From Symbiotaphrina buchneri (lineage: Eukaryota > Ascomycota > Symbiotaphrinales > Symbiotaphrinaceae): a stretch of 64,000 nucleotides of DNA. Shown here one piece after another: positions 9,126 through 62,197 of the stretch (position 1 is its first letter; every line of letters begins with the position of its first letter). The position numbers and the translations under genes were made by a program. The DNA is taken from the NCBI GenBank assembly GCA_001599915.1, contig BCIG01000007.1, positions 62,001 to 126,000 on the forward strand, given 5' to 3'. The notes under the pieces are model-generated. The model was not told the DNA's origin. It ran no database searches and was given only the letters and a program-made list of their open reading frames with translations.

Positions 9126-9595
9126 GGTGTTTCTTTGTTTAGTCTGGTCCCGTGTTATCCAACTCTGTTGGGGCCCGTCGGCTTTTTGCTGCCTGGGTTT
9201 TTGGGGACAAGGTTGGAGGTTTGTTAGTGGTGGGGCACGGTATGCGCGCTGCGGGGTACGGTTGGGAATTGCCCGGATTCTTGCCAAGAGGTGCCCCACA
9301 TACGGAGATTAGTCCAGAACGGTGCGTCCGTCAATAATATGGTAGGAGTTGAAGTGAGAATATGACAAAACGTTTGGGATGGGAACATGGGGATCCGTGG
9401 TTCACACACTATCAGCGGATCTGTCTACTGAGAACATCTGGGCGGTGTTTCGCGGCATCAGGGAAGCACCCTCCTCCGAGGGATGGGGAGACCACTCATA
9501 ACATCACCAGCCACAACCCCTAACCCCATCATCTCAATCCAACCCCATCTTCACCCCATCGCATCCTCCAGGTTCCCCACCAGCAGCTCACAGCC

Positions 9596-10512: not shown

Positions 10513-11325
10513 GGCTTGCTCTCTCTACAGGATTTATGTGTCTCGGGTTTTGCGGTCGCTGGATCCGAGATCATGTACAGCGTCGGCGAAGAAGAAAATC
10601 GGGCCCGCTTATCGCTATCGACGTTTTCCGCCGATAACGTAACGTCATGAGCATTGTGTGTCTTGACTGTTGCACAAGGAATGACAAAATTGCAAAGACA
10701 CCGGAGACACTGTGAAGAAAAACGAAATTCAAGAAAGATATATGTGGAGTTGTGCCGACTGAGCAACCGATGTAGGTCAAAGAACAAATGTAAGGTACGT
10801 GAGGAGCGGCGCCCTCAACGATGGTGTGTTAACCGCTAGGTTCCATGCTGTTCTCAGAAAGCAAAGGTCGCTCGATTCTCCAGCTTGTTCTCAACTACCT
10901 TCTCTCCTCCATTCTGTGCTAAACATCGGCTTTTCTGGACACGGAGAAGACCCCGCCAACTTAGCTCGCAGACCGGTCGAGTGATCATTGCTCCCCACAG
11001 CATTACATAGACCTGCTTGCTGACCACAGATATCTCCATAAGCTACCCACGCCAGGACATAGAACCAAATAAACTTTAATAAAGTTACTGATATCCCCAA
11101 CTTCTAAAGTCCCATCTAAATCACCTTAGGCAATAAGCTGGTGGGGTGTGGGGTATGGACTTTGTTCCTGCGCGGGGATATTGTGGGGAACAACGCCCGC
11201 CTCGAATCCCAGGGTTCTGGTGCATACATTATCTAGCACATCTCTGAGAGACAGGGGGTCCGTACTTGTCCACCCCATCAAACCCCAACTTCACTAAACA
11301 CAGGAGACCTACCCGCTATATCAGA
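10513..11325. other. divergent promoter region between SDR and flavin oxidase genes
   Basis: 813 bp separates the start codons of two divergently transcribed genes. No further gene is supported. A shared promoter is possible but I see no defined operator. Confidence 0.4.
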
Positions 11326-13307
<1,982 letters not shown>

Positions 13308-13535: not shown

Positions 13536-14561
13536 ATGCCGCGGCAACTGAGGAGAGATCTCTTAAACAACCTGCCTAGGATGGACACGGATCTGGACGG
13601 GTTTCAATACGATGCCGAGAATCCAGATACATACTTCATCTTCATTGATGGAGCCTGCAGCAACGCACGAGCCGCAGTTGGCGTCTACTTCAGCTGTCAA
13701 TCACAGTATAATCTCTACAAGGCTCTCCCGGCACCTGAAACCGCAGCACCACTTACATACAACTATGCTGAACTTATGGCTGCCACTGAAGCAGTGCACC
13801 ACGTCATGGGGCTGATCACCTTTGATAAGGTCATGGAGGGAGCACAGCGTGTCGTGCTGGTGTCTGATTCCTCCTTTCTCGTCAGCTGTATGACTGAGTG
13901 GATTCACGAGTGGAAAGCGAACAACTGGACGACAGCCTCCGGACTTCCACTCGCTAATCGATATCGGTATGAGATTGAAGAGCTGGACTTGCTGCTACTG
14001 GATGCTTCTAGGCAAGCCGCAATCGAGTTCCACTTCAGGTTGAGGCCCTGTGAAGACGTGGCGGAAGCTAATGAGCTTGCCAATGACGCGCTCAACAGGC
14101 GAGTCAGGCCGTGGGTAGGCGAGTGGATAATTGGTGCAAACTATGATGAGCACGGGAATATACGCAACCTACCAGAAGACAAGTTCAAGCTGCAAATTGG
14201 AAATCTTGTTGGAACTGCTTGCTACGAATCGAGAGCACGTACTTCGGTTGTGTCCGCACGTTTCGTCCGGTTGGCTGGTTACAAGAGGAGGATTCGATGG
14301 TTTAAGGAAGGCTTTGACAGCATTGCATTATCTCCGCTACCTGGTTATCATGGAGCGATCCACCCGGATGGCGGAGTGGAAATGCCAATCATGGTAAATG
14401 GAAGGCCCTTCATGCACTTCATGTGGGTCGTCTCGACGCTGCCGGAGGATGTGGACTGTATAATTGGCATCGACCTTATCAAAAACCGAGATATCTTCTG
14501 GGATGGCAATGCTGGTCCGGGAAAGGCGCCATTCAAAACATTGAGCAGACTGTTTCGGTAG
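13536..14561 (+). CDS. RNase H-domain protein, tandem copy 1
   Basis: Single-exon, 341 aa, from ATG 13536 (a second Met at residue 16 is possible). The N-terminal half is an RNase HI-like fold: FIFIDGACSN (first acidic residue), YNYAELMAATEAV (second), VLVSDSSFLVS (third), then the WKANNW basic patch. The fourth acidic position, clear as ADRLAN in copies 2 and 3, reads ANELAN here, so activity is doubtful. The C-terminal ~150 residues form a second conserved domain with TSVVSARFVRLAGY and VDCIIGIDLI, also present in both neighbours. RNase HI degrades RNA in RNA:DNA hybrids; whether this one does is unknown. No reverse transcriptase, integrase or terminal repeats surround it. It is followed by two paralogues in the same orientation. 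Confidence 0.75.
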   Translation: MPRQLRRDLLNNLPRMDTDLDGFQYDAENPDTYFIFIDGACSNARAAVGVYFSCQSQYNLYKALPAPETAAPLTYNYAELMAATEAVHHVMGLITFDKVMEGAQRVVLVSDSSFLVSCMTEWIHEWKANNWTTASGLPLANRYRYEIEELDLLLLDASRQAAIEFHFRLRPCEDVAEANELANDALNRRVRPWVGEWIIGANYDEHGNIRNLPEDKFKLQIGNLVGTACYESRARTSVVSARFVRLAGYKRRIRWFKEGFDSIALSPLPGYHGAIHPDGGVEMPIMVNGRPFMHFMWVVSTLPEDVDCIIGIDLIKNRDIFWDGNAGPGKAPFKTLSRLFR

Positions 14562-14950
14562 CCGGACGACAGCAGTCAAAGTCTGGGAGAGAGAGAGCTC
14601 AATCAAAGCACAAACACCCTATTTTGACGTGAGATTTGCGAGATGATGGAATAATTATATCATCTCAGCTCAAGTTAAAGCTAGTGAGGCAGGGTTGGCA
14701 AAATGATTGTACAGCGTGGACATGCGTTCGAGCGAGCACGCTAAAGAAGGCTAAGATTGTAGGATGGTTCAATGCCGAGAATTACGCGTAAGAGGTGACG
14801 GTTCCAGACCTTCGCCAAGCGCGTCTCGCCAATGCCCCTTTCCTCTTCCTCCACTTCCATCCAGTCCACTCCCATCATCCATGGCCGGAACAGAGCCCCA
14901 ATTCTGCTTCCTCGGATTATCTCGTGCGATCCATCGTTGATCTCGTCAAT

Positions 14951-16078
14951 ATGCAACGTAACGGATACAGCAAAAGACTATACGATGCAGCGGTCAGAGA
15001 GCAGAGGACCGCAGAGTATGCGGCATCTCCGATGATTGCCGATTTGATCACGGAGTTATACCCGGATGGATTCACATGCGATTACTTTGACCCCAGAACC
15101 TATTATGTCTTCGTCGACGGCGCCTGTCGCAACAATGGACATCCTGACGCTCGAGCGGCCGTGGGTATCTACTTCAGCGAGAATTCGAAGCACAACCACA
15201 AGGCGACGGTTTCGCAATCACGGTCTGATACGTCTTTGACCAATAATATCGCAGAGATCGAAGCGGCATATATTGCACTTGGGCATATTCGAGACCTTTT
15301 CCTTTCCAAGGGTGGAATGCAAGATATGCAACGCCTGGTCCTAGTCACTGACTCCTCGTACCTGGTCAATTCCATCACGAAGTGGATTTACAAGTGGAAG
15401 GCCAACGGATGGCAATCCAACTCCGGCCTTCGTGTGGCTAATCAGACTCTGCTTAAAGAGCTTGAGATCAGAGTTGCGGCTGTTGAGAATCAGCTTGGAA
15501 TTGAGGTATTCTTCTGGCTGCAACCGCGCAAACAGCTCGCTGGCGCCGACCGTTTAGCCAACCAGGCGCTCGACGCGCCCGAAGCACCTAGGATCACGCC
15601 GATGACTGGGAATTACAGAGTGAATTCAGCCTTCATAGTTTCCAAAGACGTTCGAGAATTGCCCAGTACCACGTTCCCGCTCCGAATAGGACCGCTCGTT
15701 ACGAGTACCTGCTTCTCCACCGCGTCAAATACCTCTGTTGTCTCTACACGCTTCGTTCGGCTTGCGGGCTACTTGGAAAAGGTCCGTCCCTTCAAGGAAG
15801 GCTTTGACACGGTGACTTTGAATCCAGGTTATGGCGGACACACAAGTGGAAGCCACCCGGATGGCAAGGTCGTCATGCCCATCGTGATAGATGGTAAGGA
15901 GTGCAACCATTCCCTGTGGGCAGTTTCCACCTTGCCTGAGAACGTGGACTGTATGCTAGGGACCGACTTCATATGCGTCCATAACATGAACGTTGACTTA
16001 GGGCGCGGAGATGGGGAGCATCCATTTTCTCCTCCGATGATTGCATACGTGGGCTATTGTGAAGTAGTTCGTGCCTGA
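14951..16078 (+). CDS. RNase H-domain protein, tandem copy 2
   Basis: Single-exon, 375 aa, from ATG 14951, the first ATG in the frame; the frame is open upstream without one. All four RNase H acidic positions can be placed: VFVDGACRNNG (Asp56), NNIAEIEAAY, LVTDSSYLV and GADRLANQAL. The WKANGW segment and the Ala/Asn-rich end of the domain also fit. The C-terminal domain has TSVVSTRFVRLAGY, FKEGFD, HPDGKVVMPIVIDG and VDCMLGTDFI, lining up with copy 1. The arrangement [TS]-S-[VI]-[VI]-S-x-x-F-V-R-x-A-G followed much later by D-C-x-[LI]-G-x-D loosely recalls the retropepsin fold, but this is a weak inference and I make no activity claim. It sits about 390 bp after copy 1. Confidence 0.78.
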   Translation: MQRNGYSKRLYDAAVREQRTAEYAASPMIADLITELYPDGFTCDYFDPRTYYVFVDGACRNNGHPDARAAVGIYFSENSKHNHKATVSQSRSDTSLTNNIAEIEAAYIALGHIRDLFLSKGGMQDMQRLVLVTDSSYLVNSITKWIYKWKANGWQSNSGLRVANQTLLKELEIRVAAVENQLGIEVFFWLQPRKQLAGADRLANQALDAPEAPRITPMTGNYRVNSAFIVSKDVRELPSTTFPLRIGPLVTSTCFSTASNTSVVSTRFVRLAGYLEKVRPFKEGFDTVTLNPGYGGHTSGSHPDGKVVMPIVIDGKECNHSLWAVSTLPENVDCMLGTDFICVHNMNVDLGRGDGEHPFSPPMIAYVGYCEVVRA

Positions 16079-16192
16079 GGCTGCGGACTATGTACATGAG
16101 GGCGACATTCGTTCGTGTCCATAAGATGGACCTTGAATACGGGCGTGGAGATGGGTAGCATTCATTTTCGCTTCGACGACCATCGTCGTATA
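15975..16192 (+). repeat. diverged direct repeat at the 3' end of RNase H copy 2
   Basis: About 75 bp at 15975-16051, coding for the last part of copy 2, recurs at 16116-16192 just past the stop (shared pieces TGTCCATAA, GGGCG.GGAGATGGG and CATTTTC). The offset is about 141 bp. It looks like an old partial duplication of the gene's 3' end. Confidence 0.6.
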
Positions 16193-16597
16193 AGTAAAGG
16201 TCGTCAATCACGGGAGCACGGCGCTCTTTGCTGTTCAGGGCATCATCACATAGCAGCGGGACTTGTGTTTAGGTGCAGCTGCTTGTACCGTTTGAAGGTT
16301 TCTCGGCGTGTCAGATTCGGAGCAGTAAATACCCATGCGGAGCTATATATTATCAGCAGCTCCATGAACTACGCTACTTCTAGTTATATGAATTCTCCAT
16401 CCATTTGCGGAAATAGACTGGCAATGCTGCTGATAGACGGAGAACTGATAACTGTTGGAGTTTGTGCTGGGAGCTATGCGTAGGCAGGGGGCTATCTCGG
16501 ACCGGTCTATATCTCGCTTAAGCCCAACCTCCCTCACCCGCCCTCTGTATTTGACCCGCCTCTTGGAATCTCTGACAGATAACACAACGAGAGGCGC

Positions 16598-17818
16598 ATG
16601 CTGGTCAGGACTCCCTTCCATCCACAAGATGCCTTGGAGAAGGGTAGCGACCGATACTATCTGTGTGATGATGCACCCAATCCATGGTCCATCACTCTCG
16701 GCAGAGATGGCTTTCAACACTCCGCTTATGGCGGGGAGCTGGCCACTGAGACAACGTATGTGCACATCGACGGCGCATGTCGAAACAATGGCCGCGACCA
16801 TGCCGAAGCAGCACTTGGCGTCTTCTTTGGAGACGGTTCTTGCTACAATATGAGCCGGAAACTGGACGGCCTGGGGACTCGAGCCGTGACCAACAATTAC
16901 GCTGAGATTAGTGCATGTCTCTATGCTATGGCCATGATCCGGCATCTCACGCGCATCAAAAGCCCTCTTGCACAGAGTCGCCGTATTGTCATCGTGACAG
17001 ACTCGGAATATGTCGCCCGCTCGATGGCCGAGTATGTTCTCAAATGGAAAAAGAACGGGTGGCGGACGGTGGCTGGCAAAGAGGTTGCCAACCGGTCCAT
17101 CTTGGAACAAATAGATAAAATGATCATCCAGTACGAAGGGTTATATGGCCCTGAGGTTCTCTTTTGGAGGGTTGACCGGGACGACAATGATCAAGCCGAT
17201 CGGCTGGCGAATGCAGCTCTGGATGCTGCCAGAAGACGTCAACATGAGACGGACGACGTAACAGGCCCATCGGGCAAACGTGCTAGGCCATCTTCCCCTT
17301 CGGCGGACATTCCTGCAGCCAAGAAACGACGGGAGACGCCTTGGAAAGGCGAGTATCAGATCGGCGGTCTCCTCGTCGAGTCAGAAGATGGACGGCCCAA
17401 GGGGAGTTTCCGGCTTACCATCAACGGCCTTGACAGCATCGCCATGTTCAGCAGCAGCTCCAGCATATCTATCATATCAGAGAATTTTGTTCGCAAAGCG
17501 GGTCTATTCCATAACGTAAGGTGGTATCGGGAGGGTTTCGACGATGTCAAGGCTGGGCATTCATACTTGGACTTGAGCTTTCAGCCGCGGGGTATGGTGC
17601 ATGGGCTATCAGTGGAGATACAGGGTCGGGAGTTACCTGTCGATATGTTGATCCTCAAGGATGCACCCGCGGCTGACCTTGACTGTGTCCTGGGGAGGGA
17701 CATCGCTCGTGAGCATGACCTCTTGTACATGCCGAGGGCAGAGGATGAGCACAAGTGTCCGCTGTGTTTCGTGCCCGAGTTAATGCGATCCATGTTGTCG
17801 CGACGTACTGGCGGTTGA
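16598..17818 (+). CDS. RNase H-domain protein with NLS-like linker, tandem copy 3
   Basis: Single-exon, 406 aa, from ATG 16598. RNase H motifs are complete: YVHIDGACRNNG (Asp58), NNYAEISACLYAM, VIVTDSEYVAR and NDQADRLANAAL, with WKKNGW between. A linker absent from copies 1 and 2 contains GKRARPSSPS..AAKKRRE, a bipartite nuclear-localisation-like pattern. The C-terminal domain follows: FRLTINGLDS, SSSISIISENFVRKAGL, YREGFDD and DCVLGRDI. This is the most complete of the three copies and the most diverged from the other two. The role of the C-terminal domain is unknown. Nuclear action on RNA:DNA hybrids is one inference. Confidence 0.78.
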   Translation: MLVRTPFHPQDALEKGSDRYYLCDDAPNPWSITLGRDGFQHSAYGGELATETTYVHIDGACRNNGRDHAEAALGVFFGDGSCYNMSRKLDGLGTRAVTNNYAEISACLYAMAMIRHLTRIKSPLAQSRRIVIVTDSEYVARSMAEYVLKWKKNGWRTVAGKEVANRSILEQIDKMIIQYEGLYGPEVLFWRVDRDDNDQADRLANAALDAARRRQHETDDVTGPSGKRARPSSPSADIPAAKKRRETPWKGEYQIGGLLVESEDGRPKGSFRLTINGLDSIAMFSSSSSISIISENFVRKAGLFHNVRWYREGFDDVKAGHSYLDLSFQPRGMVHGLSVEIQGRELPVDMLILKDAPAADLDCVLGRDIAREHDLLYMPRAEDEHKCPLCFVPELMRSMLSRRTGG

Positions 17819-18106: not shown

Positions 18107-19479
18107 TTAGCTCACCTCCTCCGTCAGTTTCTCATCAAACATCTTCCAAAAGCGCGCGGCATTCATATCTTCCGACCCGCCCGACCATGGTATCAAGAAT
18201 TCTTCACCCCAAAACTCCGAGTAAAAAACTAGCTTCTCCTAGAATTACTCTCCGTCAGCAATCATCATCTCCTCAAACCAGGACATGCACTACAACAACA
18301 TACTTTTCCCAAGGTCAACGTCAAGGCGCCCTCAAAGTCATTCGGCACGTATTTCTTCAGGTCTTTTCTCCCCTTGATGAGCCGCAATATGTTGTCCGTA
18401 ACGACCTCGGCCTGTATCGCGCCGGCTCTGCCCATTTTCGGCCCAGTTGTATGTGCTACATCCCCCAAGGCGAAGATATTGCGGTTTGGAGCCCCGTTTA
18501 CCAGGAGAGTTGGCTCGACCAGGATCTCGCCACTTGCCGAGACGCATTGCGGTAGTGAAGCGGCGAGAATCTCGGAATTGGGATGTAAGCCGGTGCAAGG
18601 AATCTACACCAGGAGAAATTAGCAGGATGTCCCTAGCAGACTACGCGGTGTACATACGACGAGATCAAATTCTCTAACTTGTCCGTTTATGAAATGCAGC
18701 TTGGTGTCCCTGATAGCCAGGTCATCCACAGCAGGCAGCTGTGGCCTCTCACCCAGCATGACATCCACACCCAGATCCCTCAGGACCTTTACGACATGCT
18801 CATGCAGCTTCCGTCCGAATCTCGGGAGCAACTGGTCTCTCGAATGGATCAGCGTCACGCTCTTGTCCGGATACACATTCTTAATATCCGCCGCGAGCTC
18901 CACGCCCACCGCGCCACCCCCAACAACCGCTATCTTCTTCGCCTCCCTGATCAGGCCCTGGAACTTCTGCAACTCCCGTACTCCCTCGCTCTTGCTCATC
19001 GCCGCCAATCTCGCCGGTGGAGGCTGCGCCGCGCCCGTCGCTATAGCCAGATACTCGAACGGCACCTCTCTCCCATCCACCAACCGCACTGTCCCCTCGC
19101 CAATACCTTCCACCTCGCCTTGCAGCACCTCCAGCGCGCCTTGCGGGGCAGCCTTCACGGTGCCATCATATGGGATAAACGCCCTGGTCTCAAACCCCTG
19201 GACGACGCTGTACCGTGGAAACGCAAAGCTGTAGTGCAGATGCGAGTGGCGCTCCACCAGCACGACCCTGTAGCCGGAAGGAATGGAGTTTGCGAGGCGG
19301 CGCGCGAGGTGCAGGCCTGCGAAGGAGCCGCCGATGATGACGATGGCTTTGGGGTCGGATACGGCGCGGTAGGTGCGCTTGTGGATCAGCGAGGAGACCG
19401 AAACGGAGAGCTGGTGTAGAGCGAAGGGGACGAGGGTGCTGATCAGTTTGAGGATGAATTTTAGGGTTGTGAACCCCAT
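18107..19479 (-). CDS. AIF/AMID-like FAD-dependent NAD(P)H oxidoreductase
   Basis: Three exons (19479-18658, 18603-18304, 18238-18107) give 1254 nt, 417 aa. The N-terminus has a hydrophobic segment (residues ~5-30), suggesting a membrane anchor or targeting. The FAD-binding GGSFAG is at 50-55, the NAD(P)-binding GGGAVG at 187-192, the ATG-type motif AIATGAA near 146, and the second FAD contact NIFALGDVA in exon 2. This is the two-dinucleotide-binding layout of pyridine nucleotide-disulphide oxidoreductases, in the apoptosis-inducing factor-like / AMID branch (ferroptosis suppressor relatives). Such proteins reduce quinones or similar acceptors with NAD(P)H. The last exon (EKLVFYSEFWGEEF, ending in EEVS) was chosen because it restores a natural C-terminus through a GTATGT..CTAG intron of 65 bp. 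Confidence 0.85.
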
Positions 19480-19780
19480 TCTGCTTTAATGGGTATGGCC
19501 TTCGACGAGCAGAGTTGGAGGTGGGAAGAAATTCAGGATGCAGGAGATCGGGCCCGGTCAAGATACTATTATGCCCTGTATTCACTCACTTCCATACTGC
19601 TTGGAATCCTTGTTGCCTAAACCAATATCTATGAGGGCCCTTTCGGTCCTATATCGGAGAATTCGCCCTCAAAATCACCCATGAACTTCCTTATGTGGAG
19701 AGCGCCATGGAGTCTCCGTGGGCCACTTTGAAGGAAAGGGGTTAGCGCTAGTCTGAAAGAAGCGCAGAAACGACCCGATA
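19480..19780. other. promoter side of AIF-like gene
   Basis: A short non-coding stretch between the AIF-like ATG and the MITE insertion. No gene is seen. Confidence 0.4.
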
Positions 19781-19789: not shown

Positions 19790-20340
19790 AGGGGTGCTTC
19801 GGGAGCGTTGATTTCGAAAGTTTTTTAACACAAAAAGTTACCGAGTTTTAACCACGCCGCTTATACAACACCGCGTGAGATTTGTATGGGAATCAACATA
19901 TCGGCAGTGCTACCGTTCAAATTATTGAAGCTTTTTCTGATTTACTTGAATATAACAACTTAGGATAATTGAGATAGGTCATTCTACTATAGCTGATGTA
20001 ATTCAAGGGACGAAAGAGGTGTAAAGACGACTTAGAAATTGATTTATAGTTATGTTTTTACAATAAAGAGAGTTAAATCTTCAGGGACTACAACGTCAAA
20101 TAACATAAAAGAAGAATAAAATAAGAAACGACGACCAAAGTCCCTATAGAGCTGTAAAGCTCCTTATTCAGGTATTTGAAGGTTGAAATAAATAATTTAG
20201 GAATGAGTTTTGAGCTGTCACACTGACTAGGTGTTGACTCCCATATTGATTTTGGTGGGGGCTACATAAGCGGAGTGGTTAAAATTCGGTAACTTTTTCT
20301 GTTAAAAAACTTTCGAAATCAACGCTCCCGAAGCATCGCG
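19790..20340. mobile_element. MITE-like non-autonomous DNA transposon, 551 bp
   Basis: The element has long terminal inverted repeats: 19795-19864 and 20266-20335 match over 70 bp with about 3 differences, starting TGCTTCGGGAGCGTTGATTT. The interior is AT-rich, without a coding frame or transposase. The 9-bp ACGGCCGTA lies just outside both ends. Long TIRs plus a ~9-bp target duplication fit a Mutator-like (MULE) derived MITE; the outermost 5 bp on each side do not pair, so exact ends are uncertain. High similarity of the two arms suggests a fairly recent insertion. It sits in the intergenic space upstream of the AIF-like gene. Confidence 0.75.
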
Positions 20341-20349: not shown

Positions 20350-21101
20350 GATTGATCTGATAAGCGGTAGCTTCCTACTGGCGGCCAGGAGTGTACTCGT
20401 AGAGGTACGAAGTACGGTGTATTCGCTTAATTGCCTATAGCTATCTTTTCCTTCCAAAATGCTAATAATAATGATATCGATCGACTCGTAGATCATGACC
20501 TACCACAATCTTCCATCAACATCACACTGTCCAATCAACCATAAGAGCTGCATATTCAAGATGTTCACTGACTCTGCAACGTTGACATCCATAATTGGCC
20601 GTCCAGTACCTGCTCTTTATCGTCGGAAAAGCCTCATCTTGCGGTTGTGGAGCTGTGCCACTCACGCAGCATAGCCCACCATCCAATGGGGTTACATGAC
20701 TACCAGCACCGGGCGCGAATCAGTAGCAAGCCAAGCTGAATCCATGCAGTTGCACTCAAAACGGTGTGTAGCGGTGCCTCGCCCGTGGCGGCTTCTCCAA
20801 TGATGTTTGACCCCAGCATCCTAGAGCCTCACTCATGGTGCGCGTTGCAATTGGACGATGTCTGTTTTGACCCCGGAGAGCTTGATCCCTGTCGGAAACC
20901 AACACCGAGGAAGCGCCCGGTGTTGGGAATTGCCCGGAGTCTTGAGGCTGTGAATTCGCGCTTCAATCATTCTCCGCCACCCTACCTACTGAGACTGATG
21001 GTAAGTCACGGCTCATTATTATTGATACAGATTTGGATTCTTTCCACTTTGATCTTTTGTAACTCACTTTGATCTGCCTGCACTTGATATTCCTCTCCGG
21101 A
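20350..21101. other. intergenic, no gene seen
   Basis: The stretch lies between the MITE and the membrane-protein start. Short frames only. The right part is presumably the promoter of the next gene. Confidence 0.35.
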
Positions 21102-37099: not shown

Positions 37100-38457
37100 G
37101 GCTGGCTAGACGGCAGCAGGAATGCCACAAACAACGCCAAGCTTTGGCGCCAAGCCTTCACTGACAGCAGCAGGATGTGCGGATAAGGGTTTAGTGAGTG
37201 TGTGACATTGATCGGAACGGTGGTCGGTTTCGAGTAGATATTGCGTGCTCCGGCTCAGGAAAGAAGGTGCGCATGTGCAGAACTTAGCAGCCTCTTACGC
37301 ACGCCGCGCCTGTTGGGCCGCGGCATGACTTCCGCGGTTTGATTAATCTATCAGCGTTGTGCGGACGCAGGGCGTGGTGTAACGTTTGAAGCCTCTGCTC
37401 GCTGATGTGAGAAGAAGATCTGATGCAGGTGATGATGCCCTATCAGTAGCTCGTGTGAGTGCTGTTGCGGGGCGGTGTTTCATCTAAAGAACTGGCATGA
37501 TGAGTCCGTGCTATCCAACATCACCAGGCTGCCACGACTTTGACTCGGCTGTATAAACCCTCGCAAAACTTCCCTCTTTGAGTCTAGCTCTTCTCCTTCC
37601 CGCCCCGCTCGATGCGCTCATTTGCTCCGTCCTCCTCATATCGTACATGCAAGAATGCAGAGACGTTTTTCATCAGGCCTCCTGCATCCTCAGATCTATC
37701 TCTACAGGGGCCAAGCTTTGCGGGTCGTCCGGCAGCTGGCCGCCTATCCCTTAGTGTCAGACATAGGCGCAATTCCGGGCCGATAGGGCTGGCATCTCCC
37801 GTTCATCGGTCTACGATGGTCAGATTCTGATTCATTTGAGGAAGGTCGGGGAAGAGCAAGATAGAATTGGATTAACTATTGGCGCGGCTACAGGAGATTA
37901 CAAGGGATTCTTCAGCTCGGTCTAATGGATAGTTGCATCAGACATGGTCCAGAGAAGCTCATTGTCTGGGGAGAACCGCGTAGTCTGCATGATAAAGCTG
38001 AACTTCAGGTGGAAAATAACCTCCCGGTGTGCATTTTCCGCATGGAAATTGAATAAGCAGATGCTCAAATGAGAAATCTGACGATTGATGTGCGGAAAGG
38101 TTCCGCGTAACAAGGGGCGTTGGTTGAACCGGGAGGTCAAATGCAGTCTAAAAGGCTCAGTCTCTTAGTAAACACTTCCAATATACATGACAAAGCTGAT
38201 CTGCGGGTGGAAAAATAACCCACGGGTGTGCATTTTCCGCGTGAAATGACATTAGGGGCAGGTCCGTCCCGCCAAATCCCCTTATTCCAGTGACATCGCC
38301 CGACTAGGTAAACGCTCGAGGGTTACATCGGGCAACAGACTTGCATAATGAGATTACCATGGCCAGGTGGACTAACTACTCTTCTAGCAAACGAGGAGAC
38401 AGAAACCTCAGCGCAGCATTATCCCTTTTCAGCAATCCCATCACAACAGTATCCTTC
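37100..38457. other. long intergenic region with a diverged direct repeat
   Basis: No gene is supported in 1.36 kb. About 65 bp at 37985-38050 (CATGATAAAGCTGA..GTGTGCATTTTCCGC) recurs at 38183-38250 with several differences and a small indel. The left part is the promoter of the Zn2Cys6 gene. Confidence 0.5.
37985..38250 (+). repeat. diverged ~65-bp direct repeat pair
   Basis: Copies at 37985-38050 and 38183-38250, sharing ACAAAGCTGA-like and GTGTGCATTTTCCGC blocks. Spacing is about 200 bp. No ends typical of a transposon are visible. Confidence 0.6.
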
Positions 38458-61654: not shown

Positions 61655-62197
61655 GCATGAGGGATTCTTGTGTAAGGGGTATGCAGGTTGTTGTACCTGG
61701 AGATATAACGCACTGGATATGTATTGTCATAGATGTCTGGACTGTATAGACAAACGATAGATGGTTGAAACTGGAGTTAGAAGACAATGCTAATATCATG
61801 AAACCGCATTGTACGTTAGTCCCACTGTATCAATACTGAAACAATATCCACAGCGTCTTGTCAAGACAGGGCTTTCAACAAGACATTGTGTCTCGGCAGC
61901 ACAAAGAAGCTCGTCTCGACTTCAAACACAACGCCATTGATCCCGAACGCTTCCTTGAAGTAAATGGAATACCAGATCAGCAAGAGATACAGCATTTAAA
62001 TATGAGCAATCTTCATGTTCGAAATCTCCATCATTCGAAGAGTACAAACGGGAATGGCAGGTCCAATAACGAAACTCTTCAAGCTTCTCTCCTTCTCCTA
62101 TTTCCAGACGCCCGTTCCGCCGGCCTCTGCAAGCCCCGCCGCGAATCCAGACATACATGCCAGAAGCAGCACAACGCAAGAGGCCTCGGAGGGTAGA

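Follow-up and report, generated by a model that had tools for sequence, protein, structure and literature searches.

Three genes standing in tandem on a contig of the ascomycete Symbiotaphrina buchneri (GenBank assembly GCA_001599915.1, contig BCIG01000007.1) each join an RNase H domain to a C-terminal domain that could not be placed by reading the sequence alone. This arrangement raises the question of what the C-terminal domain is, and of whether the genes are remains of a mobile element, decaying duplicates, or a host gene set with a function of its own. The window analyzed here is the stretch of 64,000 nucleotides at positions 62,001 to 126,000 of this contig, and all coordinates below refer to it.

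Gene layout

The three co-oriented, diverged paralogues described in the initial annotation are found as open frames on the plus strand with 29–43% identity to each other, and the frames are uninterrupted, the term 'intronless' holding for the open frames (Table 1). The first in-frame ATG of copy 2 is at position 14951 (residue 53), and this ATG is likely the start. The NLS-like linker that had been noted in copy 3 does contain basic clusters.

Copy 2 is adjoined by a decayed duplicate of its own 3' end. The local alignment between the duplicate and its source scores 96, whereas the highest of 300 scores obtained after single-base shuffling of one side is 39. When the window is searched by tblastn with the copies, part of the fragment (16108–16170) is recovered with an E-value of 0.002. 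The duplicate is a trace of local duplication. With the copies as queries, tblastn finds no fourth copy in the window, just this fragment. Searching the window for tRNAs and Rfam families gave no matches.

Table 1. Positions of the three genes, their domains and the adjoining fragment in the window
Feature	Position	Strand	Description
Copy 1	13536..14561	+	Open frame of 341 aa, ATG start
Copy 1 domains			RNase H1-type, residues ~30–188; pseudo-retropepsin, residues ~190–335
Copy 1 pseudo-retropepsin domain	14103..14558	+	E-S-R (from E231, nt 14226) replaces D-[ST]-G; DCIIGID from nt 14454
Copy 2	14795..16078	+	Open frame of 427 aa counted from GTG
Copy 2 pseudo-retropepsin domain	15578..16075	+	S-T-A (from S308, nt 15716) replaces D-[ST]-G; DCMLGTD from nt 15947
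Decayed duplicate of copy 2 3' end	16085..16204	+	Source 15946–16072
Copy 3	16598..17818	+	406 aa, ATG start; RNase H1-type domain, basic linker, pseudo-retropepsin domain
Copy 3 linker	17228..17338	+	Two basic clusters, NLS-like (sequence reading)
Copy 3 basic clusters	17276–17287; 17321–17332	+	KRAR; KKRR
Copy 3 pseudo-retropepsin domain	17339..17815	+	S-S-S (from S285, nt 17450) replaces D-[ST]-G; DCVLGRD from nt 17681

The RNase H domain

All three copies match the Pfam family RNase_H (PF00075), with E-values of 8.9e-14, 2.7e-18 and 3.8e-16 for copies 1, 2 and 3, respectively, and the corresponding bit scores (52.3, 67 and 60) are all above the curated cut-off of 25.8. The four acidic positions are complete in copy 2 (D108/E154/D186/D252) and copy 3 (D58/E103/D135/D201), while copy 1 (D38/E79/D111/N179) keeps three only, the last being Asn, in agreement with the initial annotation. 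Copy 1 also lacks five residues after the first catalytic Asp.

Among solved sequences, the closest to copies 2 and 3 is human RNase H1, and copy 1 is about equally close to RNase HI and human RNase H1. When the full-length model of copy 1 was compared with the PDB, the 13 best matches were human RNase H1 chains, and the best 50 of the 84 rows with E ≤ 0.001 were all of RNase H1/HI type. The RNase H part therefore looks like the cellular RNase H1 type. With eukaryotic RNase H1 (represented by the human enzyme, alongside E. coli RNase HI) the copies have in common the catalytic-domain family and fold, in copies 2 and 3 the full set of acidic residues, and, shared with the human enzyme, the W-K-x-N-G-W-x-[TS] stretch. 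They differ from it in the absence of the His from the loop preceding the last acidic position, in their C-terminal addition, and in standing as a tandem of three. They also differ in the hybrid-binding domain: for all three copies, the list of Pfam matches up to an E-value of 10, from which most matches above ~0.1 were filtered, includes no such N-terminal family.

The CDD contains a 'Dikarya-like' RNase H group of uncharacterized fungal RNase H1 paralogues, comparable in this respect to the copies. Neither the name of this group nor its CDD number appears in the papers among the matches listed in the open-access literature.

Fold of the C-terminal domain

The initial annotation could not assign the C-terminal domain to a known host family. 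It can be assigned, although the sequence matches are weak. A profile built from the three copies retrieves 11 solved sequences at E ≤ 10, and six of them, including the four best (E-values of 0.0094 to 0.029), are Ddi1 proteins; the fifth match is an unrelated heme oxygenase (0.03), and the best per-domain E-value of the profile alignment is ~0.1. In the alignment with yeast Ddi1, D-V-L-I-G-L-D falls on the D-C-x-[LI]-G-x-D of the copies. Pfam detects the domain in one of the three copies and below its cut-off: the copy 3 domain alone matches RVP_2 with an E-value of 0.001 (19.3 bits, cut-off 20.3), followed by Asp_protease (0.018) and gag-asp_proteas (0.18).

For the C-terminal domain of copy 3, the AlphaFold2 model, a single chain predicted from an alignment of the three window sequences alone, has a pLDDT of 64.7 and a pTM of 0.62. 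All 29 PDB chains (11 entries) found with it at E ≤ 0.001 are retropepsins, comprising 26 chains of Ddi1 type and one each from EIAV, HIV-1 and Rickettsia. The TM-scores of these matches are modest (0.35–0.50 by query and 0.51–0.66 by target). In the same model the pLDDT of the C-terminal tail, where the retropepsin dimer interface would fall, is below 50; the C-terminal part of the copy 1 model has a pLDDT of 23–50. As judged by the model of copy 3, on which the fold was tested, the C-terminal domain has a predicted retropepsin-like fold of the Ddi1 or LTR-protease type.

The predicted fold resembles the RVP domain of Ddi1 in the helix that follows the active-site loop and in the D-x-[LI]-G-x-D motif. 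The differences from Ddi1 are the fusion to RNase H and the lack of any listed UBL or UBA match (Pfam, three of three copies). In addition, all three copies have an E-G-F-D motif between the helix and the next strands, where Ddi1 is shorter and different.

Loss of the protease active site

The catalytic D-[ST]-G of retropepsins, present in Ddi1, is replaced in every copy (Table 1), the substituted positions being those on which the D-T-G of yeast Ddi1 falls, and D[ST]G does not occur anywhere along the three proteins. The domain is therefore a pseudo-retropepsin. Because the cutting residue is gone, the protease part probably serves now just to bind or pair proteins. One might consider that it is still an active protease working through another residue, in view of the Glu that copy 1 has at the position of the catalytic Asp. 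This is hardly credible, because copies 2 and 3 have Ser at that position, and the G of the motif is missing in all three as well.

Relation to mobile elements

The initial annotation reported no surrounding reverse transcriptase, integrase or terminal repeats, and ORF scans and a repeat search likewise found none. The window contains 53 ORFs of at least 170 aa, including the three copies. Reverse transcriptase, integrase and transposase families are absent at E ≤ 0.001 from the 50 others, and the copies themselves contain neither reverse transcriptase nor integrase. Between 9000 and 22000, the only direct repeats flanking the genes are 23 and 21 nt long and ~10–12 kb apart, and no LTR-sized pair is present around the genes or in the window.

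These results bear on the view that both domains descend from one Pol, the genes then being remnants of an LTR retrotransposon polyprotein or domesticated from it. Ty3/Gypsy Pol likewise holds an RNase H and a retropepsin, and RVP_2, which Pfam ranks first for the C-terminal domain of copy 3, is a profile that occurs in fungal Ty3/Gypsy elements (PMC3248453). The likeness to Ty3/Gypsy ends with this weak RVP_2 match and the co-occurrence of the two domains. In the copies the RNase H precedes the protease, which is the reverse of the order in Pol; reverse transcriptase, integrase and visible LTRs are lacking; and the protease site is dead. Moreover, PF00075 is stated in section 8 of the same paper to detect less than 10% of the RNase H domains of fungal LTR elements (PMC3248453), yet it matches all three copies at 9e-14 to 3e-18, and their closest solved relatives are RNase H1/HI. 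Descent from a single Pol is therefore considered unlikely. The genes are taken not to be plain retrotransposon relics because of the cellular-type RNase H, the lack of a detected hybrid-binding domain, and the order of RNase H and protease opposite to that of the LTR polyprotein.

The origin of the protease part is a separate matter. Domestication of an element's protease is possible. The alternative, compatible with the functional reading given below, is that the C-terminal domain derives not from a retroelement but from the host gene Ddi1, through fusion or duplication. Ddi1 leads the matches among solved structures in both sequence and fold, but Pfam ranks RVP_2 over Asp_protease (0.001 versus 0.018), and no copy has a listed match to UBL or UBA. 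The PDB contains few proteases of LTR elements, and the Ddi1 ranking is biased for this reason. A Ddi1 origin is a tentative candidate, short of even odds.

Divergence of the copies

Pairwise amino acid identity is 42.6% between copies 1 and 2, 33.8% between copies 2 and 3, and 29% between copies 1 and 3 (324, 340 and 351 columns, respectively), and the alignments span both domains without a frame break. Identity by codon position decreases in the order second, first, third in nine of nine comparisons (three pairs, each taken as whole length, RNase H part and C-terminal part), where the whole-length rows overlap the other two and the alignment of codons by protein itself favors the first and second positions. 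In all three copies the codon usage score is higher in frame than in the other five frames. The dN/dS ratio is not usable because the synonymous sites are saturated: NG86 gave no dS in five of six comparisons (dN = 0.55 and dS = 1.94 in the sixth), and YN00 gave no usable estimate in any of the six.

It may be argued that the genes are decaying duplicates without function, either pseudogenes or neutral paralogues, considering their fast divergence (29–43% identity), the lost acidic residue and the deletion in copy 1, and the decayed 3' fragment next to copy 2. However, three long frames have stayed open despite the saturated synonymous sites, and both the order of the codon positions and the in-frame codon usage are those of coding sequences throughout. 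Decay is therefore improbable, and the comparison of the copies supports a set of diverged genes with an evolution of coding type. The set is not a recognizable mobile element. Its birth from domestication, which the initial annotation raised as a possibility, is possible for the protease part, while the RNase H part is cellular-looking.

Proposed function

The reading preferred here, to which we assign a probability of roughly 0.6, is that the genes are duplicated RNase H1 derivatives with a non-catalytic retropepsin fold that pairs or binds partners. Each gene encodes an RNase H1-type nuclease domain followed by a retropepsin-like domain devoid of the catalytic aspartate. These two domains, the condition of their active sites, the coding-type evolution and the duplication in tandem are computational results, whereas the activities proposed next are inferred from them. 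The proteins would act on RNA:DNA hybrids by cutting the RNA strand, and copies 2 and 3 are better candidates for this activity than copy 1. The retropepsin fold would act now only as a dimerizing or partner-binding module, taking the place of the N-terminal hybrid-binding domain of ordinary eukaryotic RNase H1; in Ddi1, the RVP domain is described as responsible for dimerization (PMC4962041). Copy 1, with its Asn at the last acidic site and its loss of five residues, may be an enzyme of low activity, or else a subunit pairing with copies 2 and 3.

A genome-defense job is possible, as a prediction only. In its most specific form, the protein would be a dedicated anti-retrotransposon factor. 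Its dead protease fold would form mixed dimers with, or capture, Ty3/Gypsy-type protease precursors, thereby bringing the RNase H to the reverse-transcription complex of the element and destroying the RNA:DNA intermediate, and the tandem copies would reflect an arms race. This scenario is regarded as very unlikely.

With the C-terminal domain named, the genes present an unexpected pairing, in which a nuclease domain of cellular RNase H1 type is joined to a protease fold lacking its catalytic residues. The preferred reading clearly predicts that the C-terminal domain either dimerizes or brings the RNase H to a partner. Conservation of the pairing in fungi would make it an unusual case of a dead retropepsin used as a scaffold, and if many genomes carry the fusion, it may account for part of the uncharacterized fungal RNase H paralogues.

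Relatives in other collections

The fusion of RNase H and pseudo-retropepsin is absent from the viral, prokaryote and plasmid matches examined, which is weak evidence because these collections hold viruses, prokaryotes and plasmids. With the full-length alignment, 22 loci (of 63 pattern matches) were found in viral contigs, all within query residues 10–195, i.e., the RNase H part. For the C-terminal alignment, pattern matches numbered 28 among viral contigs and 56 among prokaryote genomes, and tblastn confirmed none of them. Among 36 plasmid records, the best 20 are ribonuclease HI genes matched at query residues 8–139. In the open-access literature, no title or beginning of an abstract among the matches listed describes a fungal RNase H-retropepsin fusion; most subscription journals fall outside this scope, and the novelty of the fusion is unproven.

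RIP indices in the window

RIP was considered as a source of the divergence of the copies and rejected because each of the three has a composite index below zero. Across the window the index exceeds zero in five of 254 stretches of 500 bases each, with a maximum of 0.34, and none of the five lies over the copies. Two of them cover a MITE-like element.

Gene content and coding constraint

By its gene content (fungal Zn2Cys6 transcription-factor, GH76, Utp21, PPIP5K and fungal AAA-lid genes), the window is DNA of a filamentous ascomycete. One Utp21 exon scores 575 bits against the solved Utp21 5oql, which we take to be that of Chaetomium thermophilum, and less than 190 bits against each of the other four listed, presumably from yeast. 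The initial annotation placed three paralogues at one locus, and this is correct: three open frames lie on the plus strand, with pairwise identities of 42.6%, 33.8% and 29% across both domains.

Coordinates of the copies, neighbouring genes and repeats in the window
Feature	Position	Strand	Description
Copy 1	13536-14561	+	open frame, 341 aa
Copy 2	14795-16078	+	open frame, 427 aa
Copy 3	16598-17818	+	open frame, 406 aa
Copy 2 3'-end duplicate	16085-16204		imperfect, decayed; between copies 2 and 3; source 15946-16072
FAD-oxidase gene	11248-13307		neighbour of copies; presumably vanillyl-alcohol-oxidase-like
Pyridine-nucleotide oxidoreductase gene	18619-19485	minus	neighbour of copies
MITE-like element	19795-20335		541 bp
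23-nt motif	9261-9283; 20922-20944	same	pair
Direct repeat	38013-38246		35 nt

The copies are under coding constraint. In all nine comparisons, whole-length rows included, identity decreases from the second (0.52-0.71) through the first to the third codon position (0.28-0.42), an order toward which alignment of codons by protein is itself biased, and codon usage in frame outscores the five other frames in all three copies. Because synonymous sites between the copies are saturated, dN/dS is unreliable. RIP is ruled out as the source of their divergence, since its signature was found in none of the three. The copy 2 3'-end duplicate (score 96, against a maximum of 39 in 300 shuffles) is a trace of local duplication.

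The RNase H part

All three copies match PF00075 above the curated cut-off, a family that LINE-type RNase H also matches. The top solved relatives of copies 2 and 3 are human RNase H1, which shares with them the aligned stretch W-K-x-N-G-W-x-[TS]; for copy 1, RNase HI and human RNase H1 are about equal. For full-length copy 1 as modelled (pLDDT 53.8, residues 31-190 in blocks of 51-84; pTM 0.49), the 13 top PDB matches are human RNase H1 chains, and the best 50 of 84 at E <= 0.001 are all RNase H1/HI-type enzymes. According to PMC3248453, moreover, PF00075 detects less than 10% of fungal LTR-element RNase H domains. On comparison with solved enzymes and with LTR elements, the RNase H part thus appears to be of the cellular RNase H1 type.

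The four catalytic acidic positions (D-E-D-D) are intact in copies 2 and 3; in copy 1 the last of them is N, and five residues are missing after the first Asp. Copy 1 is not certainly dead, because E. coli RNase HI reportedly retains much activity when it carries D134N. Eukaryotic RNase H1 carries an N-terminal hybrid-binding domain. The Pfam matches listed for the copies include no family of this kind; those of copy 3 besides RNase_H are RVP_2, Asp_protease and a chance-level glycosyltransferase.

The C-terminal domain

The C-terminal domain is identified here as retropepsin-like at the level of predicted fold, which is the new result. With the three window sequences as sole input, AlphaFold2 modelled this domain of copy 3 at pLDDT 64.7 and pTM 0.62. 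In Foldseek the model matches 29 PDB chains from 11 entries at E <= 0.001 (TM-scores by target 0.51-0.66), with human Ddi2 at the top (E 2.9e-6); 26 of the chains are Ddi1-type, and EIAV, HIV-1 and Rickettsia retropepsins contribute one each. Among viral models there are 12 matches at E <= 0.001, eight labelled aspartic peptidases or Pro/Pol or polyprotein pieces, three unnamed and one uncharacterised. In the copy 1 model, the C-terminal part follows a broadly similar series of elements (three strands, a helix and a long hairpin), but with low confidence.

A profile of the three domains, searched against all solved sequences, returned 11 at E <= 10, six of them Ddi1 proteins, including the four top matches (E 0.0094 to 0.029). 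As an unrelated heme oxygenase is fifth (E 0.03) and the top per-domain E is about 0.1, a relation to Ddi1 is only suggestive from sequence. Yeast Ddi1 A-F-V-D-T-G-A-Q-T-T-I-M-S aligns onto the conserved [TS]-S-[VI]-[VI]-S block, and its D-V-L-I-G-L-D onto D-C-x-[LI]-G-x-D. In Pfam, the copy 3 domain matches RVP_2 (E 0.001; 19.3 bits, cut-off 20.3) and, more weakly, Asp_protease (E 0.018) and gag-asp_proteas (E 0.18); no match of this domain is listed for copies 1 and 2. The fold may have come from either Ddi1 or an LTR element: derivation from Ddi1 is favoured by the solved structures, although these, to our knowledge, include few LTR-element proteases, and derivation from an LTR element is favoured by Pfam through RVP_2.

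At the catalytic D-[ST]-G positions of retropepsins, copies 1, 2 and 3 read E-S-R, S-T-A and S-S-S, respectively, and the motif is absent from the full length of all three proteins; motifs kept across copies include F-V-R-x-A-G, E-G-F-D and D-C-x-[LI]-G-x-D. Because D-[ST]-G is lost in every copy, the domain is termed a pseudo-retropepsin, sharing the predicted fold of retropepsins but without their catalytic motif.

Relation to mobile elements and possible function

Among the 50 other ORFs in the window that reach 170 aa, none matched a family of reverse transcriptases, integrases or transposases, and no LTR-sized repeat pair flanks the copies. Unlike Pol, the LTR retrotransposon polyprotein, they have RNase H before the protease. 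The interpretation given in the initial annotation was half right: the copies form no recognisable mobile element, but the C-terminal domain that it left unassigned can be assigned, by AlphaFold2 and Foldseek, to the retropepsin fold. Searches of one open-access literature collection turned up no description of an RNase H-pseudo-retropepsin fusion, a result that does not establish novelty.

Ddi1 dimerises through its RVP domain (PMC4962041). On the simplest reading, the RNase H part would cut RNA:DNA hybrids and the dead retropepsin fold would provide pairing or partner binding for it. The basic linker of copy 3 suggests a nuclear location. The analysis itself establishes both domains, the state of each active site and the coding constraint; role, location, dimerisation and nuclease activity are inferred.

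Other repeats

The A+T-rich MITE-like element adjoins the pyridine-nucleotide oxidoreductase gene and is bounded by inverted arms, 96% identical over 70 bp and 80% over 127 nt; no second copy was found within the window. Two 500-base stretches over it have the top RIP index values of the window (0.27 and 0.34). The motif GTTGGGAATTGCCCGGAKTCTTG occurs twice, 11.7 kb apart (0 such pairs in 100 shuffles), and may be a common promoter element or a repeat remnant. The direct repeat is 86% identical, with a spacing of 199 nt.
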